From positions 1-48,628 of the forward strand of contig JAFQCX010000036.1 of assembly GCA_017416245.1 (NCBI GenBank): a DNA stretch of 48,628 bases, given 5' to 3'. The position numbers were made by a program, and so were the translations under genes. Below the pieces are notes generated by a model that was not told the DNA's origin, did not search any database, and worked only from the letters and a program-made list of their open reading frames with translations. Shown here piece by piece: positions 16,689 to 35,381 of this stretch (position 1 is the first letter of the stretch; every line of letters starts with the position of its first letter). Source of the stretch: Oscillospiraceae bacterium (GTDB lineage: Bacteria > Bacillota > Clostridia > Oscillospirales > Oscillospiraceae).

Positions 16689-16719
16689 AAGCGCCCCAAA
16701 AGCCTTGGCCTTTGGGACG
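16689..16719 (-). terminator. Terminator of the isomerase/amidohydrolase operon
   Basis: An imperfect stem (GCGTCCCAAAGG pairing with CTTTTGGGGCGC) followed by TTTGTTTT on the minus strand lies about 25 bases after the isomerase-like stop. Confidence 0.65.
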
Positions 16720-16741
16720 CATTGTTTTGGATAATCGGGCT

Positions 16742-18142
16742 TTATACGCGTACGCACTCGAAGTCCATTGCCTGTGCAAAGACCTCGATCTCCTTGGACA
16801 GGTCGCCAAGGCCCAGCGCGCTGTGGTGGCCGGGGCCGTTGATGCACCAGTCGTTGTAGAACTCAGGGATCGGCTTGTGCATACGGATGCGGCAGTTGGG
16901 ATTGCCGATGTTCAGAATGTCACCGGGGACGATCTCCGCAACGGTGTAGATCAGCTTGAAGGTCTTTTCTGTACCCACCTGGGTCAGATTCAAAATGGTG
17001 ATGGGGCCCTGCTTCATATCGAAGTCAATGCCCAGACCCTCACCGATCTTGCCGTGGTGAACGGTCAGATTCTGCAGCTTGGGCTTGCCCACAGCCAGAT
17101 CCACGTTGGAAGGACCGTCGTGACCCATCATAATGAAGTTCTCATCGAAGTCCTGAGAGAAGAACTCCAGGAACATTCCGCCACCACCCAGCAGGTTCAA
17201 AATTTTCATTGCCATTGCTGCCTTTACGTCACCCTCGGTAACGGTGGGAATGCCCATTGCGGTCAGGCGGGATGCTGCCAATGCGGACTGGCTGCGCAGC
17301 TCGATCATCTTTTCGGACTGACCCCACCAGTAGAAGCCCATACCGTCGATGGCATACTTCTTTACGATCTCATCAAAGGCAACGGCAATCTTTGCAGATT
17401 CCCGCATCATATCATCGGTAACGGATTCATCCACCTCGTAGTACTCCCGGAATTCCTTGTACATCTCCTGGAGCTGCTCCTCGGTAACGGCATCGTATGC
17501 CTTCTCCACTTCCTCAATTTCAGGACGGCAGACAAGCTGGCCGGTAGCGCGAAGGATTCTGTGGTCATCCACGGGCATATCCACCATATTGGTGTAGGTA
17601 TTGCCGATAACGCCGAAACGGCATCTGGAATAAGCCTTTGCAGCTGCTGCGCCCATACAATGACGGCGGATCTCCTCCCAGAAATGATCCTGTCCGAAGT
17701 AGCCGGTGATGACCTGGAACTGCCGCTTCAGAGCAACCAGGGTGCAGGAGTATTCGGGAATGGGGCAAGCGCCCTCGTGGTGCAGGTACAGCTCGGTGTC
17801 TGCGTTCTTATAGTCGTAGGAAGCATCCTCGTGGGCATTGATCAGGCGGATGGGTACGTTGGTTGCCTTTACGGTGGGAGCGATCATCATACCTGTGGTG
17901 TAGCCAAAGGGGAAGATCAGCAGAATGTCAATATCAGACTGGCTCAGCAGCTCTGCTGCCTTTGCCGCGGTTTCGTATGTATCCACCAGGCCGGGGCTGA
18001 TTACCTCTGCGTACTCCTCCAAATGAGCAAGCAGCTTGCCGTACATAGACATACCCATTTCCTTCAGATTGGGATACTGCTGGAAATACATATTCAGTCC
18101 TGTGGGCAGCAAGCCAATTCTGGGTTTCAGTTGTGTTTTCAT
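16742..18142 (-). CDS. L-fucose/L-arabinose isomerase-superfamily protein
   Basis: The 466-residue protein has the layout of the sugar isomerase superfamily that includes L-fucose and L-arabinose isomerases: an N-terminal Rossmann-like part (ISPGLVDTYETAAKAAELLSQ, DILLIFPFGYTTGMMIAPTV), a middle domain with VTEGDVKAAMAMKIL, and a C-terminal part with MGHDGPSNVDLAVG, HHGKIGEGLGIDFDMKQGPI and WCINGPGHHSALGLGD. The conserved Glu, Asp and His residues fit a Mn2+-dependent aldose-ketose isomerase. Overall it is a divergent member, so the substrate need not be fucose or arabinose. It starts one base after the stop of the amidohydrolase gene and closes a four-gene operon read from the AraC-controlled region. 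Confidence 0.82.
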   Translation of the reverse strand: MKTQLKPRIGLLPTGLNMYFQQYPNLKEMGMSMYGKLLAHLEEYAEVISPGLVDTYETAAKAAELLSQSDIDILLIFPFGYTTGMMIAPTVKATNVPIRLINAHEDASYDYKNADTELYLHHEGACPIPEYSCTLVALKRQFQVITGYFGQDHFWEEIRRHCMGAAAAKAYSRCRFGVIGNTYTNMVDMPVDDHRILRATGQLVCRPEIEEVEKAYDAVTEEQLQEMYKEFREYYEVDESVTDDMMRESAKIAVAFDEIVKKYAIDGMGFYWWGQSEKMIELRSQSALAASRLTAMGIPTVTEGDVKAAMAMKILNLLGGGGMFLEFFSQDFDENFIMMGHDGPSNVDLAVGKPKLQNLTVHHGKIGEGLGIDFDMKQGPITILNLTQVGTEKTFKLIYTVAEIVPGDILNIGNPNCRIRMHKPIPEFYNDWCINGPGHHSALGLGDLSKEIEVFAQAMDFECVRV

Positions 18143-18143
18143 C

Positions 18144-18926
18144 TTATTTATCCTCCATATTTAGCAGTCTCAGAGCATTATCTCTGAAAATCAATTTCTT
18201 TTCTGCATCGGTAATATCGGCCGCCAGCACAGCGCCCTGGATAAACCGATAGCCCTGCATAGGCGCATCTGTGGCATAAAGAACCTTCTGCGCGCCCACG
18301 GCAGCTACCATTTTTTCAATAATGCCATTGAAACGACCGGTGTCACACAGATCCAGATAGGCATTTTCGTAGTCTTTCGCGATCTTAATGGCAATATCCG
18401 ACTGACCCTGAATGGAATGACCCATAATAAACTTCAAATCGGGATAGGTTTCCACGATCTGACGGATCTTCTCGGCGGAGTTGCACTGCTCGGCATTCAT
18501 GGAAAGTCCCCAGGTATGGGATAGCACGATCAGCTTTCGCTCGTTGGCAAATGCCAGGGCATCGGCGTAGCTGGGGTCGGTAATGTTGGTGCGGTGGTAG
18601 TCCGGCAGGAACTTCAGTCCCACATAGCCGGGATTCTCGGCAAAGGCCTTTTCCATTTCCTGCACGGTTGCGCCGGTATTGGGATTGAAGGCAAAGTAGC
18701 CCTTGATGCGGTCGGGATATGTGCGCATCGCGGTGGTGATATCCCTGCGGACACTGCCTGTAACAAACAGATCCTCACAAGGCGCGGAAACGATCAGCTC
18801 CACACCGCACTCGTCCATGTACCGCACCATACTGTCAGCATCGTGCTCCGGGTAGTAGATGGGATATTCCGGACCCATATGGGTGTGAATATCGATCATT
18901 TTGTAATCCAGATTCCAGTTGATCAT
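18144..18926 (-). CDS. Amidohydrolase (COG2159-type TIM barrel)
   Basis: The 260-residue protein is a compact metal-dependent hydrolase. Metal ligands of the family are all present: H14 and H16 in IDIHTHMG, H137 in LSHTW, H170 in IMGHS and D220 in YATDAP; K105 in GLKFLP is also typical. Relatives open lactones, decarboxylate ring acids or hydrolyse amides. With a phosphotriesterase-family enzyme and a sugar isomerase in the same operon, a lactonase-like role on a sugar derivative is plausible (inference). The ATG overlaps the stop of the upstream paralogue by four bases, which supports this start over the internal ATG at codon 10. Confidence 0.88.
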   Translation of the reverse strand: MINWNLDYKMIDIHTHMGPEYPIYYPEHDADSMVRYMDECGVELIVSAPCEDLFVTGSVRRDITTAMRTYPDRIKGYFAFNPNTGATVQEMEKAFAENPGYVGLKFLPDYHRTNITDPSYADALAFANERKLIVLSHTWGLSMNAEQCNSAEKIRQIVETYPDLKFIMGHSIQGQSDIAIKIAKDYENAYLDLCDTGRFNGIIEKMVAAVGAQKVLYATDAPMQGYRFIQGAVLAADITDAEKKLIFRDNALRLLNMEDK

Positions 18927-19708
18927 AGCTTTACCTCCCCAAGGAGCCGCTCCATATTCCGGTGGGCGATATTTTCCCGTTCCTCATCGCTGATTTTTGC
19001 TTTCAGCAGGCAGTTTAAGCTGCAGCCGGGGCTGTTGGAGGGGAAATTGGAGCCGTACAGCAAACGGTGGCTGCCAAATTTCTGGCAGATCTCTTCATAG
19101 GCGTGGGTCAGGCCCGTATCTCCTGTTTCCAGGTAGACGTTGGGATACCGCTTCAGTAGCGGATAGATCAGTCTTGCACTGGGCCAAATGCCGATATTGT
19201 TGAGAATTACCGTTAAGTTGGGGAATTCCTTCAGCACGTCATAGATGTACTGATAGTCCGGCTGGGGTTCTAAGTAAAGGGGAATCTGCAGCTCCTCCAT
19301 TGCCTTGAGCTGGTCTCCCATAGTGACATCGCACAGAATGTAGCGGTTCTGCAAGGGAAATGCCTTCAGCATTTTTACGCCGTTTTTCTTCATCTTATCA
19401 AAGAAGGTATCGGGCGCAAATTCTGTATCGGAGATCGCAGGCAGAATGGTCCAAACAGGTAACATTCTGTCCTCATAGCCGCGGATTGCCTCGGTGAGGA
19501 CCTCGTTGCCCTTAATTGGATCATAATCGAACATCGCCCGATGCCACACCGCTGCCTGCTGGATCTCAAACTTATCCATAACGGAAATCAGCTCCGCGGG
19601 GGTCTCAGCCGTTTTCACATTTTCCATTACGATAAAGCTCTCGTGGTTGACGATCGGGTGCTTTACAAAATCACTGCCTATGCAAGCATTGGCATCAATC
19701 AGCTTCAT
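18923..19708 (-). CDS. Amidohydrolase paralogue lacking the metal ligands
   Basis: The 261-residue protein aligns by eye with the neighbouring 260-residue amidohydrolase over its whole length, but the metal site is gone. HxH is N7-x-C9 (IDANACIG), the strand-5 His is E147 (LYLEPQ), the strand-6 GH is N170-N171 (ILNNIG) and the final Asp is N221 (YGSNFP). K115 in MLKAFP is kept. The frame is intact and tightly coupled by ATGA overlap to the next gene, so it is not decaying. It may be a partner or regulator of the active paralogue, a metal-free lyase, or bind a ligand. It starts 19 bases after the phosphotriesterase-family gene. Confidence 0.82.
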   Translation of the reverse strand: MKLIDANACIGSDFVKHPIVNHESFIVMENVKTAETPAELISVMDKFEIQQAAVWHRAMFDYDPIKGNEVLTEAIRGYEDRMLPVWTILPAISDTEFAPDTFFDKMKKNGVKMLKAFPLQNRYILCDVTMGDQLKAMEELQIPLYLEPQPDYQYIYDVLKEFPNLTVILNNIGIWPSARLIYPLLKRYPNVYLETGDTGLTHAYEEICQKFGSHRLLYGSNFPSNSPGCSLNCLLKAKISDEERENIAHRNMERLLGEVKL

Positions 19709-19727
19709 AGAATCACCTCGATTATTC

Positions 19728-20777
19728 TTACAGGGCTTCCTGCAGCAGGAAACGCATAGGATTCTCCTCGATGATCAGCGCGATCTCCTCGGCAGAGAAG
19801 CCTTCTTGCTGCATCATAGGAATGATGTTCTCAAAAATGTGATCGTAGCCCCAGCCGCCGTACTTATGAAGGCTTGCCTTCAGGCAGATGTCGGTGGCAA
19901 CCAGCACCTGCTTGCCAAAGCCGGCGCTTATCAGCCGCTTCAGCATACGCACACGTTCCACATCCGTAGCAAAGGGGCCGCCGGCAAAGGCGCCGTCCTG
20001 AGGCGGGAAATAGAACTCCTTGCTGAAGTTATCAAACTCAATGTAGAAGCCGGCGTTCAGCATTTCCAGCAGGTAGTCGTAATCAAAGGTAACGTCGATA
20101 TGGCAAATGCAGATATTATGGGGCGCAACACCGTTTTCCACCAGCAGATTTGCAGCCTCCAGGCCTGCGCGACTCCAGGGATAGGTGTGCAGGTACACAG
20201 GCAGGCCGGTCTTTTTATGGGCAATGGCAGATGCCAGCAGCGCCTTTCTCTCAACAGGGTAGATCACCTCGCTGACACCGATCTCTCCGATGACACCGGC
20301 GCGGATATCCGTTCCGTCGATCCCGTTTTCGATCTCATTGATCATATAATCGGCCATCTGCTCTACAGTCATAGCGCACACCTCTTCACTCAGGGTGTCG
20401 TGCACATAAAAGCCTGTTCCCAGAACAATGTCCACCTTGGAATGGTCGCTGATGTAGCGAATATCGTTCACGTCCCGCTTGATGCCGTTGCAGCTCAAAT
20501 CGATAAACAGCCCCACATTGTGCCGCTCCAGGAACTTCAGCTCGTTTATAGAATCTTCCTTATTGTCCAGGAGCAGATTGTCACGGACTATGTAAGGATT
20601 TCTGCGCAGAGGTCCCAAAATCTCTATGCGTACCTTGCTGTGAAACAGTTCCTTTGCTTCCGGGGTAGTAGGCTCAATGGCTTCGTGAATCAAGTCGCAA
20701 AAAAGATGCTCATGGGGGCAGATTCTTTTATACTTGCTCAGCGGCATTTCCCCACGAAATGTATTAATATGTTTCAT
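19728..20777 (-). CDS. Phosphotriesterase-family metal-dependent hydrolase
   Basis: The 349-residue protein has the ligand set of the phosphotriesterase family of the amidohydrolase superfamily: H22-E-H24 (CPHEHL), the bridging residue E165 in IGEIG, H197 (YLHTYP), H226 (CHID) and D296 (ATDIC). In true phosphotriesterases the bridging residue is a carboxylated Lys; the Glu version seen here is found in Php-like and several lactonase members, so a lactone or sugar ester is likelier than a phosphotriester. It is the first gene of the leftward operon and diverges from the AraC gene. AAAGGA precedes the ATG by 11 bases. Confidence 0.88.
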   Translation of the reverse strand: MKHINTFRGEMPLSKYKRICPHEHLFCDLIHEAIEPTTPEAKELFHSKVRIEILGPLRRNPYIVRDNLLLDNKEDSINELKFLERHNVGLFIDLSCNGIKRDVNDIRYISDHSKVDIVLGTGFYVHDTLSEEVCAMTVEQMADYMINEIENGIDGTDIRAGVIGEIGVSEVIYPVERKALLASAIAHKKTGLPVYLHTYPWSRAGLEAANLLVENGVAPHNICICHIDVTFDYDYLLEMLNAGFYIEFDNFSKEFYFPPQDGAFAGGPFATDVERVRMLKRLISAGFGKQVLVATDICLKASLHKYGGWGYDHIFENIIPMMQQEGFSAEEIALIIEENPMRFLLQEAL

Positions 20778-20838
20778 CGTGACATCTATCCTTTCTTACT
20801 TTTGGTTATTCCATCGGCTTAAACGCCGGTTTGCCCTA

Positions 20839-20887
20839 TGGTACGTTTGTATTATACATTATTTTTTTCTGTTTTCATACTGGTACG
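20839..20887. promoter_or_regulatory. Two TGGTACG half-sites, possible AraC binding
   Basis: TGGTACG occurs at 20839-20845 and 20881-20887, as direct repeats 42 bases apart (four helical turns), on either side of the leftward -10/-35 region. The following bases (GAAACGG and TTTGT) differ, so the site is tentative. Confidence 0.4.
20851..20856 (-). promoter_or_regulatory. -10 box of the leftward operon promoter
   Basis: TATAAT on the minus strand, about 75 bases before the phosphotriesterase-family ATG. No good -35 stands 16-18 bases upstream (TATGAA or ATGAAA), which fits dependence on the divergent AraC activator. Confidence 0.6.
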
Positions 20888-20931
20888 AAACGGTTTTTTC
20901 TGGCATTTTACGTCATTATGCTGTTAATTCC

Positions 20932-20960
20932 TTGAAAAATACTTCTATATATTGTATATT
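20932..20960 (+). promoter_or_regulatory. Promoter of the AraC-esterase-M24-ASRT operon
   Basis: TTGAAA (20932-20937), a 17-base spacer and TATATT (20955-20960) stand about 34 bases before the ATG at 20994. Confidence 0.65.
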
Positions 20961-20993
20961 AAGTATACATAAAAGAGGAAGGAGGCGCTGTTT

Positions 20994-21956
20994 ATGGACA
21001 ACCGGTTTCCTGTTCCGGACGAAATTCCGGTGATTACAGAAACTCAGATTTTCAGGCCCGGGGAAAATGTCTATGTGCAGTTTCCTCCCCAGTATTCCGA
21101 TTTTATAGGTGTGATCCACAAACACACCTTTATTGAGATCGTATATATCGTTTCCGGCTCTGCCACCCACATCGTGAACAACCGGGAGGTAGCCGCCTCC
21201 AAGGGCGACCTGTTTATTATCAATTACGACACGCCCCACGCGTTTTTCCCCAATGAGGACGATGAGCCGTTTTTGGCATACGATCTGATGTTCACTCCCG
21301 CCTTTTTAGACGCCTCTCTGCTGAACAGCGTGCGTCTGGAGTCCATCCACTCCTCTTTTCTGTTCTACTCCCTGTTCCCCTCTCAGCAAATGGGACCGGA
21401 CGCACATATCTCCGGCTCCAGCTACAACGAATTCGGTGAGCTGTTCGGCAAGATCCATTTGGAGTTTATCAACCGTGAGAATGGCTATGTGGATATTCTG
21501 CGGGCATACGTTGTGGAGCTGATCATCAAGATCTTCCGCAAAATGAATACAGATGTACCGTCCGACCAGGCATCCCGCCAATCACAGATCGTAGAACAGG
21601 CGCTTACCTATTTGAAGAGCAATTATCAAAAGCATCTGTCACTGGATGACTTTGCCGCCCAGGTATTCTTAAGTAAGGACTATTTCTCCCGCCTGTTCCG
21701 GGAAACCACCGGCGTGCCCATCAGTACCTATTTGAAGAAGGTGCGTATTGAAGAAGCCTGCAAGCTTTTGGTGAACACCGATTACACCGTAGACCATATC
21801 GCAGAGCTTTGCGGTTTTAGTGACACCAAGAATTTTTATCTGAATTTCAAAAAGCACACGGGATTAACGCCCAAGCAGTACAAGCAATCCAGTTTGTCCG
21901 GCACAAGGATATCCGGCGCATCAAAAATATCTACGAAAGAAGGATCCCATAAATGA
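20994..21956 (+). CDS. AraC-family regulator with cupin sensor
   Basis: Residues about 20-150 form a cupin-type sensing domain with HKHTFIEIVYIVSGSATHIVN and GDLFIINYDTPHAF, as in sugar-sensing AraC regulators. The C-terminal 100 residues hold two helix-turn-helix motifs (LSLDDFAAQVFLSKDYFSRLF and DHIAELCGFSDTKNFYLNF) with the family ending GLTPKQYK. The gene has GGAAGGAGG before its ATG. It diverges from the leftward phosphotriesterase operon and overlaps the following esterase gene by four bases, so it is part of the rightward operon and probably controls both sides. Confidence 0.93.
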   Translation: MDNRFPVPDEIPVITETQIFRPGENVYVQFPPQYSDFIGVIHKHTFIEIVYIVSGSATHIVNNREVAASKGDLFIINYDTPHAFFPNEDDEPFLAYDLMFTPAFLDASLLNSVRLESIHSSFLFYSLFPSQQMGPDAHISGSSYNEFGELFGKIHLEFINRENGYVDILRAYVVELIIKIFRKMNTDVPSDQASRQSQIVEQALTYLKSNYQKHLSLDDFAAQVFLSKDYFSRLFRETTGVPISTYLKKVRIEEACKLLVNTDYTVDHIAELCGFSDTKNFYLNFKKHTGLTPKQYKQSSLSGTRISGASKISTKEGSHK

Positions 21957-23017
21957 AGTGGTATAACCCCCAGACAGAACCCTTTTTGATCTCCGGCTTT
22001 CCTTTCTATGAAACCGACCGCACCTATCGGCGGATGCCTCTGCATCCGGCCCACCCCATTCCCGAGGCGGTAGACGGTTTGGCAAACGAAACTGCCGGTG
22101 GTCAGATCCGCTTTCACGGCAAGCTGAAGACCCTTTCCATTCAGGTCAGCCTTGCCTCCAAGCCTCTGCACTTCTGTAAGATCCCCGGCGCCCATCTGTC
22201 ATTGACAGCCAAGAGTGCTTTTGACCTGTATGTTGCCCGTGACGGTGGCGAATACATCTTCTCCGGTCTGCCTACCCGGTTTACCACGGAGGATAGGTTT
22301 TATGAGAAGGTTCTCATTGATCTGCCGGAGGCAGAGGAGTTTGACATTCTGCTGAATTTCCCCCTGTACAATGCAGTGGATAAAATTCTGATCGGCGTAG
22401 ATGACGAGGCTGAAATTTCCGAAAGCCACAAGAAATTTGTGGACGACAAGAAAATCGTGATTTACGGCGGTTCCATTCAGCAAGGCGCCTGCGCCAGCCG
22501 TCCCGGTATGAGTGACGCCAACATGCTCTCCCGCTGGCTTAACCGGGAGGTTTACAATCTGGGCTTTAACAGCAGTGGCAAGGCCGAACCGGAAATAGCC
22601 CACGTCATTTCCCAAATCGAAAATGTTGCCGCGCTGATCATCAGCACAGAGGGCAACTGCCCTGATTGTGAATGGCTGGACGAAAAGCTGCGTCAGTTCT
22701 TAAAAATCTACCGTGAAAAGCATCCCGAAACTCCGATTATTCTGATGCCCTTTGTTGTCGGTGGTACAGATATGCTCAACCCCGTAAAGCTGAAAGATCG
22801 TATGGCAAGACGGGCTGTTCAGCAAAAGGTCGTTGAGGATCTCCGGGCAGCCGGTGATGAAAACATCCACCTGTTGCTGCGGGATGAATATCTGGAAGCA
22901 GAATTTGACGGGCATCCCATTTTGCACGAGGCAACCGTGGACGGATTGCACTACACCGATCTGGGTTACTTTTGGTCAACACAAGTGCTTTATCAATTCT
23001 TGAAAAAACTTTTATAA
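21953..23017 (+). CDS. SGNH/GDSL hydrolase with N-terminal beta-sandwich domain
   Basis: The 354-residue protein has two parts. Residues about 1-160 are a beta-rich domain as found before many carbohydrate esterases. Residues about 165-354 are an SGNH hydrolase: block I YGGSIQQGACASRPG with nucleophile S174, block II near NLGFNSSG, a changed block III STEGN (N235) and block V D330-G-L-H333. Such enzymes remove acetyl or other acyl groups from sugars. No signal peptide is present, so it should work inside the cell, possibly on the same compound as the leftward enzymes. The ATG overlaps the AraC stop by four bases. Confidence 0.87.
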   Translation: MKWYNPQTEPFLISGFPFYETDRTYRRMPLHPAHPIPEAVDGLANETAGGQIRFHGKLKTLSIQVSLASKPLHFCKIPGAHLSLTAKSAFDLYVARDGGEYIFSGLPTRFTTEDRFYEKVLIDLPEAEEFDILLNFPLYNAVDKILIGVDDEAEISESHKKFVDDKKIVIYGGSIQQGACASRPGMSDANMLSRWLNREVYNLGFNSSGKAEPEIAHVISQIENVAALIISTEGNCPDCEWLDEKLRQFLKIYREKHPETPIILMPFVVGGTDMLNPVKLKDRMARRAVQQKVVEDLRAAGDENIHLLLRDEYLEAEFDGHPILHEATVDGLHYTDLGYFWSTQVLYQFLKKLL

Positions 23018-23032
23018 TAAAGGAGAATGCAT

Positions 23033-24229
23033 ATGTATTACGCAAAAGACATCGAAGGACAGGAATACCTGCAAAGAGTGAACGCGCTCCGCGCAAAAAT
23101 GGCTGAGCAGAATGTGGATCTGGTGGTTGGTTACTCCAACCTGCTGGAGATCGCCATCGTGCGGTACTACTGCGGCTTCGCTCCCACCAACGAGAACTCT
23201 GCCATCGTGATCCCCGCTGAGGGCGAGGTAGTGGTCTGCTCCGGTCAGGCATCCTACGATGACTGCCAGCTGAAGAACAAGCTGCCTAATAGCCGTATCG
23301 CCATTCTGCCTGAGATCGGCGAGGTATCCGGCTTTGAGTATGACACCGAAGGTCAGCTGGAGTTTGAGGAGCTGTTCCGTCAGATCAAGGCTGAGCACCC
23401 CGGCGTGAAGAGAGTTGGCTTTATCGGCCGCCTGATCTTCCCCGCCATCATTATGGATAAGCTGAGAAAGGTCTTTGCCGGCTGCGAGATCGTGGATATG
23501 GACGATATCCACTACGAGCAGAGAATTCGCAAGAGCCCTGCAGAAATTGAACTGCTGAAGACCAACTGGGAAATCGTTTCCGAGATGTTCAACAACGTGA
23601 TTCCTCAGATCAAGCCCGGTATGACCGAGCGTCACATTGAGGGTCTGTTTATGGGTGAAATGATGCGTCTGGGCGCAGAGAGCTACGTGCAGTCCTTCTC
23701 CCCCATGATCGCTTCCGGTCAGCAGAACTCCTTCGTCAGTATGCGCAGAAATGAGATGCGTCCCGTTCAGGAGAGCGAGATGATCAGCATCGGCGCCGGT
23801 GTCTGCTACGGCGGCTACAACGGCATCATCTGCACTCCCCTGGTACTGGGTGATATCCCCCAGAAGATGAAGGACGCCGTTATGTGCGCCTATGATGCCC
23901 TGAACTTCGCATCTGCAAAAATGCTCCCCGGCACTCCCTGTGACGTGGTGCTGAATGCGTACACCGACTACCTGACCAAGTACGGCTACATCGACTACTG
24001 CCCCTACGGCAGCCTGCACAGCACCGGTATGCTGGAGTGCGAAGCTCCCGTCTTCTCTGTTAACAACAAGCGTGTGATTGAAGAGAATATGGCGATCTGC
24101 ATCGACGCTTACTTCAAGGGTATGGAATGGGGCTCCTTCCGTGTTGAGGACTGCTATCTGATCGGCGCAAACGGCGCTCAGAGAATGACCACCTACAACG
24201 ACAAGGCTCTGCCTATTCTTTTCAAATAA
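23033..24229 (+). CDS. M24 (Xaa-Pro peptidase/creatinase) family protein without a metal site
   Basis: The 398-residue protein has the creatinase-type N-terminal domain (about 1-165) and the pita-bread M24 catalytic domain (about 170-398). In metallopeptidases of this fold five ligands bind two metals (D, D, H, E, E). Here the two Asp are S252 (MISIG) and I265 (GYNGII), the first Glu is D358, and H329 (SLHSTG) and E372 (RVEDC) remain. Creatinase likewise works without metal, so a creatinase-like C-N hydrolase or another non-peptidase activity is likelier than a prolidase. The ATG at 23033 is chosen because AGGAG ends seven bases before it; the ATG at 23027 is only one base away. Confidence 0.83.
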   Translation: MYYAKDIEGQEYLQRVNALRAKMAEQNVDLVVGYSNLLEIAIVRYYCGFAPTNENSAIVIPAEGEVVVCSGQASYDDCQLKNKLPNSRIAILPEIGEVSGFEYDTEGQLEFEELFRQIKAEHPGVKRVGFIGRLIFPAIIMDKLRKVFAGCEIVDMDDIHYEQRIRKSPAEIELLKTNWEIVSEMFNNVIPQIKPGMTERHIEGLFMGEMMRLGAESYVQSFSPMIASGQQNSFVSMRRNEMRPVQESEMISIGAGVCYGGYNGIICTPLVLGDIPQKMKDAVMCAYDALNFASAKMLPGTPCDVVLNAYTDYLTKYGYIDYCPYGSLHSTGMLECEAPVFSVNNKRVIEENMAICIDAYFKGMEWGSFRVEDCYLIGANGAQRMTTYNDKALPILFK

Positions 24230-24243
24230 GGAGGATATGACAA

Positions 24244-24612
24244 ATGGCAATCGGTAATAAGAATTGGGTTTTCTGCGACGGCTATCTGCCTCCCCACGGC
24301 GACAATCCCGACTTTGAGGGCCACGAGGCTCTGATGCTGACCAACCTGAACAAGAAGAAGGCAACCATCGAGCTGACTCTGGTTTTTGAGGACAAGGATC
24401 CTGTTGAGGGTATCTTCGTTGAGCTGGACGGCATGCGCACCACCTGCGTACGTATGGACCACCCTCTGGGCAAGGACGGCTTTATGCTGGGCGAGGCTGA
24501 GCAGTACACCGTTTGGGTCAAGAGTGATGTGCCTATCTGCGCCTGCTTCGGCAGACTGGATGTCCGTCAGACCAATATGGCTTACTACAGCGTAGAGGGC
24601 TACGCATTCTAA
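24244..24612 (+). CDS. ASRT (sensory rhodopsin transducer) family protein
   Basis: The 122-residue protein matches the pattern of the Anabaena sensory rhodopsin transducer family: GNKNWVFCDGYLPPHG near the start, HEALMLTNLNKKKATIELTLVFEDKDPV, VRMDHPLG and SDVPICACFGRLDVRQTNMAYYS near the end. The Anabaena member is a small soluble beta-sandwich that forms tetramers and binds DNA. Many non-phototrophic Firmicutes carry relatives next to sugar or hydrolase genes, and no rhodopsin is encoded here, so the role is probably binding of a small ligand or regulation. It follows the M24 gene by 14 bases with AAGGAGG before its ATG and ends the operon. Confidence 0.8.
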   Translation: MAIGNKNWVFCDGYLPPHGDNPDFEGHEALMLTNLNKKKATIELTLVFEDKDPVEGIFVELDGMRTTCVRMDHPLGKDGFMLGEAEQYTVWVKSDVPICACFGRLDVRQTNMAYYSVEGYAF

Positions 24613-24628
24613 GAGTTGCTTATAACGC

Positions 24629-24661
24629 CAAAGACCGCTATCCAAAGATAGCGGTCTTTGT
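24629..24661. terminator. Bidirectional terminator
   Basis: AAAGACCGCTATC and GATAGCGGTCTTT pair perfectly around CAAA and are followed by GTGTTTTT, between the ASRT and alpha/beta hydrolase genes, which converge. Confidence 0.85.
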
Positions 24662-33500: not shown

Positions 33501-35381
33501 TTACTTGCTCAGCAGAACAGTGAAGTTCTCCAGATTGTTGCCCAGTTCCTTCTGGAACTTAGCAGCGGGAGTGCCGTCCACAGCCCGGTGGTCATAGGTC
33601 AGGCTCAGGCCCATTGCGGGATAAATCTCGATAGAGCCGTCTGCGCCCTTGCGGACACGGTCGATGGTGCCGCAGACACCCAGAATGCCGGTCTGAGGAG
33701 GATTGATAACGGGAGTAAAGGACTCAACACCCATATTGCCCAGGTTGGACACGGTGAAGGAGCCGCCGGACAGCTTGTCGGGGCTGATAGCGCCGTCACG
33801 GCACTCAGCAGCCAATGCCTTAACAGCCTTGGAGATTTCCAGCAAGCTCATCTCGTCTGCGTGGAAGATGGTAGGTACCATCAGGCCGCGGGGTGTATCC
33901 ACAGCAACGCCCAGGTTTACGTGGTTGAACAGACGGATGGAGTTATCATCCAGCATATTGGCGTTCAGGTCGGGGTGGTTCAGCAGGGTGCGGGAAACAG
34001 CGTACAGAATGATGTCGCCCAGGGTAATGCCTGCGTATTCGCCACCGGCAGCCTTCAAAGCCTTGCGGTAGTTCAGAATATTGGTTGCATCGAAGGAGGT
34101 GTTGTGGGTCAGCTGCGCCATAGTGTGCAGAGAAGTTGTCATGGACTTGCTGATCGCGCGGCGGATACCGCTGAACTTCACATCCTTGTACTCGGCATCG
34201 CTTGCAGCTGCGGGAGCAGGAGCGGCAGCAACAGGTGCGGCAGCAGGTGCTTCGGCAACAGCTGCGGGAGCAGCGGCCACTGCGGGAGGATTGGCCATCA
34301 GCTCGCGCACGTCACGCTCGATGATACGGCCGTTGGGGCCGGTGCCGGTTGCCAGAGTTGCATCAACACCGGCAGTAGCTGCCAGCTTTCTGGCTCTGGG
34401 AGATACGGCAGCGCCTGCATTGCCGGCAGGTGCTGCAGCGGCAGCGCCCTTGACACCGATCTTACATACAGCTTCCAGGCAGGGAACTTCGTCACCCTCG
34501 TTGAAGAGGATCTCCAGCAGCTCGCCTTCTGCAGTGGACTCACACTCGAAGGAAGCCTTGTCGGTTTCGTAAGTAAACAGAACGTCGCCGATCTTGATCT
34601 GATCGCCAACCTTCTTCAGCCATTCGCCGATCAGGCAGGACTCAACAGTGATACCGGCCTTGGGCATAATGACAGTTTCTACACCAGCGGCTGCGGGTGC
34701 AGCAGCTACGGCAGCAGGAGCAGCCTCGGCAGGAGCCTCAGCGGCTGCGGGAGTGCCGCCGATGCCCTTCAGGCAATCGGTGGGCTCGCCGTGAGGACCA
34801 ACGGCGCAGACGTTTTCCAGGCAGGGAACTTCGTCGCCGGCCTCGTAGAAGATAGCCAGCAGCTCACCTTCTTCGGTGGACTCACACTCGAAGGATGCCT
34901 TATCAGTTTCGTAAGTAAACAGAATGTCGCCGACCTTGACCTGATCGCCAACGTTCTTCAGCCACTCGCCGATGATGCAGCTCTCGACGGTGATACCGGC
35001 CTTGGGTATCAGAACGCCACGAGCCTTGGTGGCGCAAGCAGCAGGCGCGGCAGCAGGAGCAGCAGCGGCTGCGGGTGCGGCTGCGGGAGCCTCAGCAGGA
35101 GCGTCAGCAGCGGAGCCGCCACGCAGAGCAGAGGTGTCTTCGCCGGGGTTGCCGACAGCGCAGACGTTTGTCAGACAGGGCACTTCGTCGCCTGCTTCAT
35201 AGAAGATGTCGAGAAGGGTACCTGCTGCGGTGGATTCGCATTCAAAGCTTGCCTTGTCGGTTTCGTAGGTAAACAGAACATCGCCAACGTTTACGGTGTC
35301 GCCAACATTCTTCAACCATTCTCCGATGATACAGCTTTCCACGGTGATGCCCGCCTTGGGCATAATAACAGCATTTGCCAA
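33501..35381 (-). CDS. 2-oxoacid dehydrogenase E2 with three lipoyl domains
   Basis: The 626-residue protein has three N-terminal lipoyl domains joined by Ala/Pro-rich linkers, a subunit-binding domain (about 325-362) and a C-terminal acyltransferase domain ending in YDHRAVDG. Lipoylated lysines are K43, K161 and K275, each in ETDKASFE. Each lipoyl domain carries four Cys at the same places (for the first: C17, C48, C69 and C74), which is unusual. The three domain coding segments are highly alike in DNA, so they arose by recent duplication or are kept alike. A TTG start at 35381 follows GGAGG by seven bases. Its promoter overlaps a likely DeoR-type operator. It is the first gene of the E2-E3-E1-hydrolase operon. 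Confidence 0.93.
   Translation of the reverse strand: MANAVIMPKAGITVESCIIGEWLKNVGDTVNVGDVLFTYETDKASFECESTAAGTLLDIFYEAGDEVPCLTNVCAVGNPGEDTSALRGGSAADAPAEAPAAAPAAAAAPAAAPAACATKARGVLIPKAGITVESCIIGEWLKNVGDQVKVGDILFTYETDKASFECESTEEGELLAIFYEAGDEVPCLENVCAVGPHGEPTDCLKGIGGTPAAAEAPAEAAPAAVAAAPAAAGVETVIMPKAGITVESCLIGEWLKKVGDQIKIGDVLFTYETDKASFECESTAEGELLEILFNEGDEVPCLEAVCKIGVKGAAAAAPAGNAGAAVSPRARKLAATAGVDATLATGTGPNGRIIERDVRELMANPPAVAAAPAAVAEAPAAAPVAAAPAPAAASDAEYKDVKFSGIRRAISKSMTTSLHTMAQLTHNTSFDATNILNYRKALKAAGGEYAGITLGDIILYAVSRTLLNHPDLNANMLDDNSIRLFNHVNLGVAVDTPRGLMVPTIFHADEMSLLEISKAVKALAAECRDGAISPDKLSGGSFTVSNLGNMGVESFTPVINPPQTGILGVCGTIDRVRKGADGSIEIYPAMGLSLTYDHRAVDGTPAAKFQKELGNNLENFTVLLSK

Follow-up and report, generated by a model that had tools for sequence, protein, structure and literature searches.

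The locus considered here raises the question of what two divergent groups of genes, packed around a single control region, do together. It lies on contig JAFQCX010000036.1 of the Oscillospiraceae bacterium assembly GCA_017416245.1, of which positions 1 to 48,628 of the forward strand (48,628 nucleotides, hereafter the window) were analysed. One arm encodes a phosphotriesterase-family hydrolase (PTE), two Amidohydro_2 proteins (AH2 and AH1) and an isomerase-like protein (ISO); the other encodes an AraC-family regulator, an SGNH esterase, an M24 protein and an ASRT protein. An earlier sequence-only reading had placed these eight genes and named their families, and the list of open reading frames (ORFs) and Pfam agree with it on both points. 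It had also treated the eight genes as one set. The families do recur together, but as two modules of different spread: the PTE-AH2-AH1-ISO module is rare, with three full sets among 13 ISO loci, whereas the M24-ASRT module is widespread and is accompanied by other hydrolases elsewhere. The two back-to-back operons probably serve to trim and transform an unusual sugar derivative. The favoured explanation, held with a little less than even confidence, is that the locus would work as a single catabolic unit under AraC control. Its substrate would be a modified sugar, in all likelihood an L-rhamnose-like 6-deoxyhexose in acylated, amidated or lactone form.

The ASRT protein belongs to its family without difficulty (92.3 bits against a Pfam cut-off of 25). 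The available text of De Souza 2009 (PMC2739507) describes the motif SHExxC as near-invariant and places its Cys in the ligand pocket; the window protein instead reads GHEALMLTN, with the His kept and the Cys replaced by Met. Of the genomes scanned for ASRT, the window's own included each time, 54 of 295 in the order, 70 of 391 in the class and 20 of 398 in the phylum gave a match. The comparison covered 170 distinct rows, with seven weak or fragmentary order matches and the too-short L208 left out (loci are cited by L number) and with L089 brought in through ISO. All 170 retain the motif His, while at the pocket column 91 rows have Cys and 79 some other residue. None of the 91 Cys rows has an M24 homolog within 1.5 kb, versus 65 of the 79 Cys-less rows, and in 59 of these 79 it is on the same strand and no more than 300 bp away. 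Fisher's test on 65/14 versus 0/91 gives 1.5e-33 (4e-17 for the first 99 rows), values that overstate independence as the rows are related. The first set of 99 rows included 20 order loci picked for a low Pfam score as suspected M24-linked cases, the remaining matches being added afterwards; in the 71 later rows alone, linkage is 0 of 42 with Cys versus 27 of 29 without it. Six of the 65 linked rows are loose, at more than 300 bp (L107, L140, L142, L199, L206 and L214), and L140 is also weak and on the other strand. Among the 59 tight rows, L152, L207, L218 and L234 are partial or weak M24 matches, and some unlinked ASRT rows lie near contig ends (L139, L213).

One branch of the ASRT tree splits the two classes, with SH-aLRT (Shimodaira–Hasegawa-like approximate likelihood ratio test) support of 95 when the nine motif columns are removed and 97 in the first tree, which kept them. 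The tree is a quick one of 110 columns in which two long branches are joined, and whether the Cys-less side forms a clade depends on the root. About 11 changes of M24 label are needed along it. Three Cys-less proteins (L199, L206 and L215) carry KGHEC or RGHEC, placing a Cys two positions before the pocket column; M24 is absent there, or partial and about 1.1 kb away.

The M24 domain of the partner protein scores 101.5 bits against a curated cut-off of 23, and its ligand positions were taken from an alignment with the prolidase 1wy2. The five ligands of the family, which we take to be D, D, H, E and E, are incomplete in all 59 full-length rows, those of the window, L086 and L090 included: both Asp are lost and the first Glu is replaced by Asp. 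The ligand His and the last Glu are kept in the same 59 rows. For the M24 earlier described as metal-free, "M24 without both aspartate ligands" is the better wording. From its residues the protein is likely metal-free, and a one-metal H/D/E site is possible. Residues His331, Glu337, Glu339, Asp360, Arg372 and Glu374 are invariant in 28 rows; L111, which entered the M24 profile with two codons beyond its stop, was left out of the later alignment. The ratio of non-synonymous to synonymous substitution rates (Ka/Ks) is 0.057 for M24 (against L101) and 0.076 for AH2 (against L085 and L086), both rough at a Ks of 2.2 to 2.6; distant M24 pairs give 0.46 to 0.98, which is meaningless at such divergence. 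As the two ratios are well below 1, both are taken to be working proteins. Decay of the AH2 and M24 genes was ruled out by these ratios together with residue losses common to the orthologs.

An M24 protein without the usual two-metal site could also belong to an explanation in which the pair would serve in regulation or sensing instead of catalysis, with ASRT reading a sugar and controlling enzymes or DNA. In the accessible portions of the two papers, De Souza 2009 (PMC2739507) argues that ASRT binds sugars and proposes it as a sugar sensor, and the Anabaena ASRT is studied as a DNA-looping protein (PMC8660804). The six invariant M24 residues, however, are as expected of a working site, and the Cys-less class lacks the very Cys that De Souza puts in the ligand pocket; a sensor role is considered improbable.

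The M24-ASRT pair keeps varied company. Among 34 long loci carrying both genes, a creatininase-family gene accompanies them in 11, an M81/MlrC gene in nine and a PTE-family gene in six; eight have none of the three, and no locus has two. The hydrolase is not always adjacent (the creatininase gene of L189 is 3.5 kb away), and the stretches differ in length. Glycosidase-like neighbours include DUF4838 (L101, L109), GHL6 (L107, L180, L181) and an alpha-L-fucosidase-family gene (L107). The smallest form of the module is a bare AraC-M24-ASRT (L171, L172 and L174), with an M24 that is 79-81% identical to that of the window and without a nearby member of the three hydrolase families. A second divergent cluster was observed in the host genome itself (L003, G000:C37, 3460-7610), in which AraC faces ASRT, M24, creatininase, rhaM and a ureidoglycolate-lyase-like gene.

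No description of the M24–ASRT pairing was found among the papers listed in the literature searched, a scope that excluded most subscription papers and all preprints. The main text of De Souza 2009 (PMC2739507), as available and apart from its supplement, contains no word beginning with M24, creatin-, aminopeptidase, peptidase, amidohydrolase or phosphotriesterase; creatininase-type inositol hydrolases gave no lead for this locus in the literature search. It is conceivable, though held with some doubt, that M24-ASRT is a new two-protein module, in which a creatinase-fold protein that lost its two-metal site would act on a sugar derivative only when joined by a Cys-less ASRT tetramer. The module would be attached to pathways that begin with one of three unrelated hydrolases, of the creatininase, M81/MlrC or PTE family. 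On that view ASRT would serve as a subunit of an enzyme, not as a rhodopsin transducer, and the window would hold the version of the module joined to a hydrolase-pseudohydrolase-isomerase pathway. The role of ASRT in genomes without rhodopsin was already asked about in De Souza 2009 (PMC2739507, available text), and the ASRT literature searched is mostly about one cyanobacterial rhodopsin. The absence of the pocket Cys tracks a single side of the ASRT tree as well as a single gene partner, which offers a testable handle on that role.

The other arm was followed through ISO. Within the same family, 34 of the 150 genomes sampled, the host included, carry a homolog, and none but the gene of the window itself exceeds 34% identity; in the class, 52% is the best other match across 391 genomes. 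One genome from each of 84,980 species was scanned, which gave 13 loci whose best segments are 51-94% identical and whose titles name Clostridia or Firmicutes, Brocadiaceae, Kiritimatiellaeota, Acidobacteriaceae, Actinomycetota and Phycisphaerales. In three other Clostridia (L085, L086 and L089) PTE, AH2, AH1 and ISO stand in the same order. They are contiguous in L086; L085 has a second AH1 and a gene of 451 amino acids before ISO, and L089 has ATP-binding cassette (ABC) genes between PTE and AH2. L088 carries AH2-AH1-ISO with AH2 cut by the contig edge, and L091 carries ISO-rhaM-AH2-AH1-ABC. Diplocloster modestus ASD4241 (Lachnospiraceae) has the isomerase, rhaM, the amidohydrolase pair and ABC genes in one cluster. 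The profile scan of neighbours was built from chosen seeds, and matches on those seeds are circular; Pfam backs some of them. By these profiles L087 (a contig of 3.2 kb) and L096 matched neither cluster partners nor rhamnose genes. Chance packing of unrelated genes was ruled out, as the gene order recurs in other genomes.

Whether the two arms belong together is answered by the same relatives. L089 reads ASRT-M24-LacI-PTE-ABC-AH2-AH1-ISO on one strand, its transporter being of the sugar type with a Peripla_BP_4 binding protein, and because it holds both arms in this way the arms appear to belong together. L086 reads M24-PTE-AH2-AH1-ISO on one strand, and an M24 gene without the Asp ligands is present in the ISO loci L086, L089 and L090. 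Since relatives carry members of both arms in one gene run, both most likely serve one pathway. The sequence-only reading had named as support a recurrence in distant Clostridia, with a transporter in some copies: recurrence in other Clostridia was found, the transporter stands inside the cluster in one copy, L089, and the arms do occur together, but the one set it envisaged had to be corrected to two modules.

The two modules could instead be separate ones, PTE-AH2-AH1-ISO and AraC-SGNH-M24-ASRT, joined at one control region by chance or recent rearrangement. The bare AraC-M24-ASRT loci described above would fit such a joining, as would L085, which has the four-gene module and neither M24 nor ASRT in its 21 kb, and the M24 subtype of the window, which shares only 23-24% identity with that of L086, L089 and L090. 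The gene runs that join M24 to PTE or ISO in these three loci speak against it. So do the AraC homologs closest to that of the window among the fetched loci (62% and 69% identical), which adjoin the PTE/ISO module in L085 and L086. Such a joining is rated rather unlikely.

The substrate is approached mainly through ISO, which falls within the L-arabinose isomerase superfamily. It carries AraA domains, and in a profile alignment to AraA chains its Glu303, Glu326, His341 and HH 439-440 align with the conserved motifs EGD, E, H and HH, which presumably form the metal site of AraA. These residues are invariant in 17 homologs. In L091 (8636-9973) and L094 (5048-6355) ISO is preceded by a protein without a Pfam match and with weak ISO-profile scores of 55 and 43 bits, perhaps a paralogous isomerase partner. 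Rhamnose genes stand beside ISO in six of the 13 loci (L091 to L095 and L097): rhaM in L091 and L095, GH78 in L092 and L093, and RhaA in L094 and L097. An FGGY kinase is present in L095 and L097, and a class II aldolase in L095. The gene rhaM also lies inside the second M24-ASRT cluster of the host. RhaM, RhaA and GH78 were matched in 11, 10 and nine of 14 ISO genomes, some weakly (one RhaA among them), counts that prove nothing alone as there is no background rate. The Thermotoga ASRT operon of De Souza is, we assume, the rhaMADBC operon of T. maritima. That operon is induced 27- to 37-fold on rhamnose according to the available text of PMC3750489, and De Souza 2009 (PMC2739507, available text) describes the Thermotoga ASRT with an isomerase, an aldolase and a kinase. 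An L-rhamnose type would be the best specific guess at the substrate, at about one in three; it is held there because the clusters are without kinase and aldolase and the host has RhaA.

The hydrolases bear on the bond that would be cleaved. PTE is a member of its family (229.9 bits against a cut-off of 22.4), and the complete metal site with bridging Glu ascribed to it is present: HxH, Glu, His, His and Asp all align with 9efa, 3k2g and E. coli PHP, the bridging residue being Glu. In L085 (5170-6219) the PTE ortholog aligns a Lys with this Glu, beside a one-residue gap, and the metal bridge may differ between these close orthologs. The two amidohydrolases are as had been described, one of the active type and one pseudoenzyme. 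AH1 has the four His and the Asp in seven of seven rows; AH2 lacks all four His in five of five (window, L085, L086, L089 and L091), and its metal-site Asp has become Asn in four, being kept in L091. A tandem duplicate of AH1 was seen beside a single AH2 in L085 (7021-8578). The SGNH protein belongs to the GxDLY type (79.2 bits for GxDLY and 120.5 for Lipase_GDSL_3, against a cut-off of 27). This type had no profile match in the other long loci scanned, and the SGNH gene of L101 is of another Pfam family.

The best-scoring solved protein for PTE, 9efa, is a phosphotriesterase-related protein, and PTER is reported to be an N-acetyltaurine hydrolase in the accessible part of PMC11374699; for the window protein this is a similarity only. 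It lends something to a further explanation, in which the pathway degrades a non-sugar N-acyl or amide compound and the isomerase-like protein has a different role. M24 elsewhere accompanies creatininase or M81 families, and in L090 a gene of the PIG-L deacetylase family is found close to ISO. Creatininase and M81 families act on amide-like bonds. Against a non-sugar compound stand the glycosidase-family and sugar-transport genes nearby and ISO itself, which keeps the AraA motifs and adjoins rhamnose genes, and this explanation is judged quite unlikely. Support for a carbohydrate context comes from the transporters and kinases, from glycosidase-family genes, and from RhaM and RhaA.

The current proposal for a sugar-derivative pathway is as follows. 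AraC would bind an inducer and switch on both arms. The SGNH esterase would take off an acyl group, and the PTE-family metal hydrolase would open an amide or lactone bond, its best-scoring solved relative being PTER, an N-acyl amidase. AH1, with AH2 as a partner subunit that has no catalytic role, would perform either another hydrolysis or a decarboxylation, and ISO would convert the freed aldose to a ketose for the rhamnose-type pathway of the cell. M24 and ASRT would act as a pair, the former, which lacks the usual two-metal site, catalysing or binding, and the latter serving as a sugar-binding partner subunit. The isomerase family and the AH1/AH2 pair add new enzymes to those around a class of sugars. 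The literature searched yielded no description of a pathway composed in this way, in agreement with the earlier statement to that effect.

Several observations weigh against this proposal. The pair can stand beside AraC alone (L171, L172 and L174). By Pfam, the eight genes include neither a kinase nor an aldolase nor a dehydrogenase, and 20 other ORFs of the window that were scanned include no sugar transporter, although one of them matches an ABC-2 membrane family below the cut-off. Seven of the 13 ISO loci, all three full PTE-AH2-AH1-ISO copies among them, have no rhamnose gene by profile in the stretch, some being short contigs. A canonical RhaA is encoded elsewhere in the host genome, which makes ISO dispensable for plain rhamnose; on the same ground ISO was ruled out as the sole rhamnose isomerase of the genome. 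The two genomes of the same genus that were sampled have neither an ISO nor an ASRT match, and no convincing operator common to the window, L085 and L086 was found. As the host assembly (1.55 Mb, 51 contigs) is 65.6% complete, absences in that genome are weak evidence.

The layout agrees with two divergent, tightly packed units, as had been described (Table 1). On the minus arm PTE and AH2 are separated by 19 bp, AH2 and AH1 overlap by 4 bp and AH1 and ISO are 1 bp apart; on the plus arm AraC and SGNH overlap by 4 bp, and gaps of 9 and 14 bp separate SGNH from M24 and M24 from ASRT. The promoter-like and terminator-like sites are consensus matches from a scan of the sequence. The 216 bp interval between PTE and AraC holds two 10-of-12 promoter-like sites in opposite directions, facing outwards; the third such site of the scan is at the end of SGNH. 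The hairpins after ISO and ASRT are the two longest in the scan. Across the scanned region the totals of such sites do not clearly exceed those of shuffles (promoter-like 13 against a mean of 9.7; terminator-like 8 against 10.2).

Table 1. Features of the divergent cluster, in window coordinates
Feature	Position	Strand	Basis
Terminator-like hairpin after ISO	16691..16720	-	13 pairs, T-rich tail; hairpin scan
ISO, isomerase-like, L-arabinose isomerase superfamily	16742..18142	-	Pfam PF11762, PF24856; AraA motifs
AH1, Amidohydro_2, complete HxH/His/His/Asp set	18144..18926	-	Pfam; nearest PDB 3cjp
AH2, Amidohydro_2 pseudoenzyme, metal-site His lost in 5/5 orthologs	18923..19708	-	Pfam, alignment
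PTE-family hydrolase, full metal site with bridging Glu	19728..20777	-	Pfam; best-scoring PDB 9efa
Promoter-like site into PTE arm	20851..20878	-	10/12 consensus matches
Promoter-like site into AraC arm	20932..20960	+	10/12 consensus matches
AraC-family regulator, cupin-type ligand domain	20994..21956	+	Pfam; homologs in L085, L086
SGNH esterase, GxDLY/Lipase_GDSL_3 type	21953..23017	+	Pfam; nearest PDB 4lhs, then SsfX3 3skv
M24 (creatinase/prolidase-type) lacking both Asp metal ligands, with ASRT as gene partner	23027..24229	+	Pfam, alignment
ASRT protein, Cys-less class (GHEALMLTN)	24244..24612	+	Pfam, alignment
Terminator-like hairpin after ASRT	24629..24660	+	14 pairs, T-rich tail; hairpin scan

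The cluster is flanked on one side by a small ORF without a Pfam match and a gene for a CNNM-type membrane protein, the latter present in three of four other genomes checked. On the other side lie an alpha/beta hydrolase gene and two transfer RNA genes, with pyruvate dehydrogenase complex genes further along; a 2-oxoacid dehydrogenase acyltransferase with three lipoyl-domain matches (33501-35381) adjoins E1- and E3-type genes and a lipoate ligase. A foreign base composition was ruled out, the cluster not being conspicuous in this respect. In two relatives the cluster is flanked by a protein of 723-725 amino acids (L085 11434-13605; L086 664-2841), whose sole match is the Glyco_hydro_20b N-terminal domain, below the curated cut-off in L086.

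Comparison with known systems places the parts as follows. Creatinase belongs to the M24 fold family and has lost metal ligands. With it and other M24 proteins lacking the two-metal site the window M24 has the fold family and the lost ligands in common, and it differs by its ASRT gene neighbour and by what appears to be its own pattern of lost and kept residues. With PTER and the phosphotriesterase homology proteins, PTE shares the full metal site, the bridging Glu and 9efa as best PDB match, but it falls below the NCBIfam equivalog cut-offs (176.6, 94.1 and 58.0 bits against 486, 500 and 630). ISO shares the Pfam AraA domains and the Glu/Glu/His/HH motifs with L-arabinose isomerase, whereas its score of 71.4 bits is far from the NCBIfam equivalog cut-off of 622 and its N-terminal part aligns poorly. 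The L-rhamnose utilisation clusters of Rodionova et al. 2013 (PMC3870299, available text) resemble those relatives in which ISO adjoins rhaM, rhaA, a kinase, an aldolase or GH78, and the one in which the amidohydrolase pair stands beside rhaM; control of the AraC or LacI type is also common to both. The eight genes, however, do not make up a rha operon, as they include no RhaA/RhaI, RhaB or RhaD and ISO matches the AraA family, not RhaA. Also close are the ASRT sugar operons of De Souza 2009 (PMC2739507), whose available text names an isomerase, aldolase, kinase and transporter as neighbours of ASRT. The window likewise has a single-domain ASRT gene with a sugar isomerase and other carbohydrate genes, and it differs in that its ASRT is without the pocket Cys and is paired with M24. 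The cluster is rated as a kind of ASRT-containing sugar operon, of which the M24-ASRT module is the part worth following.

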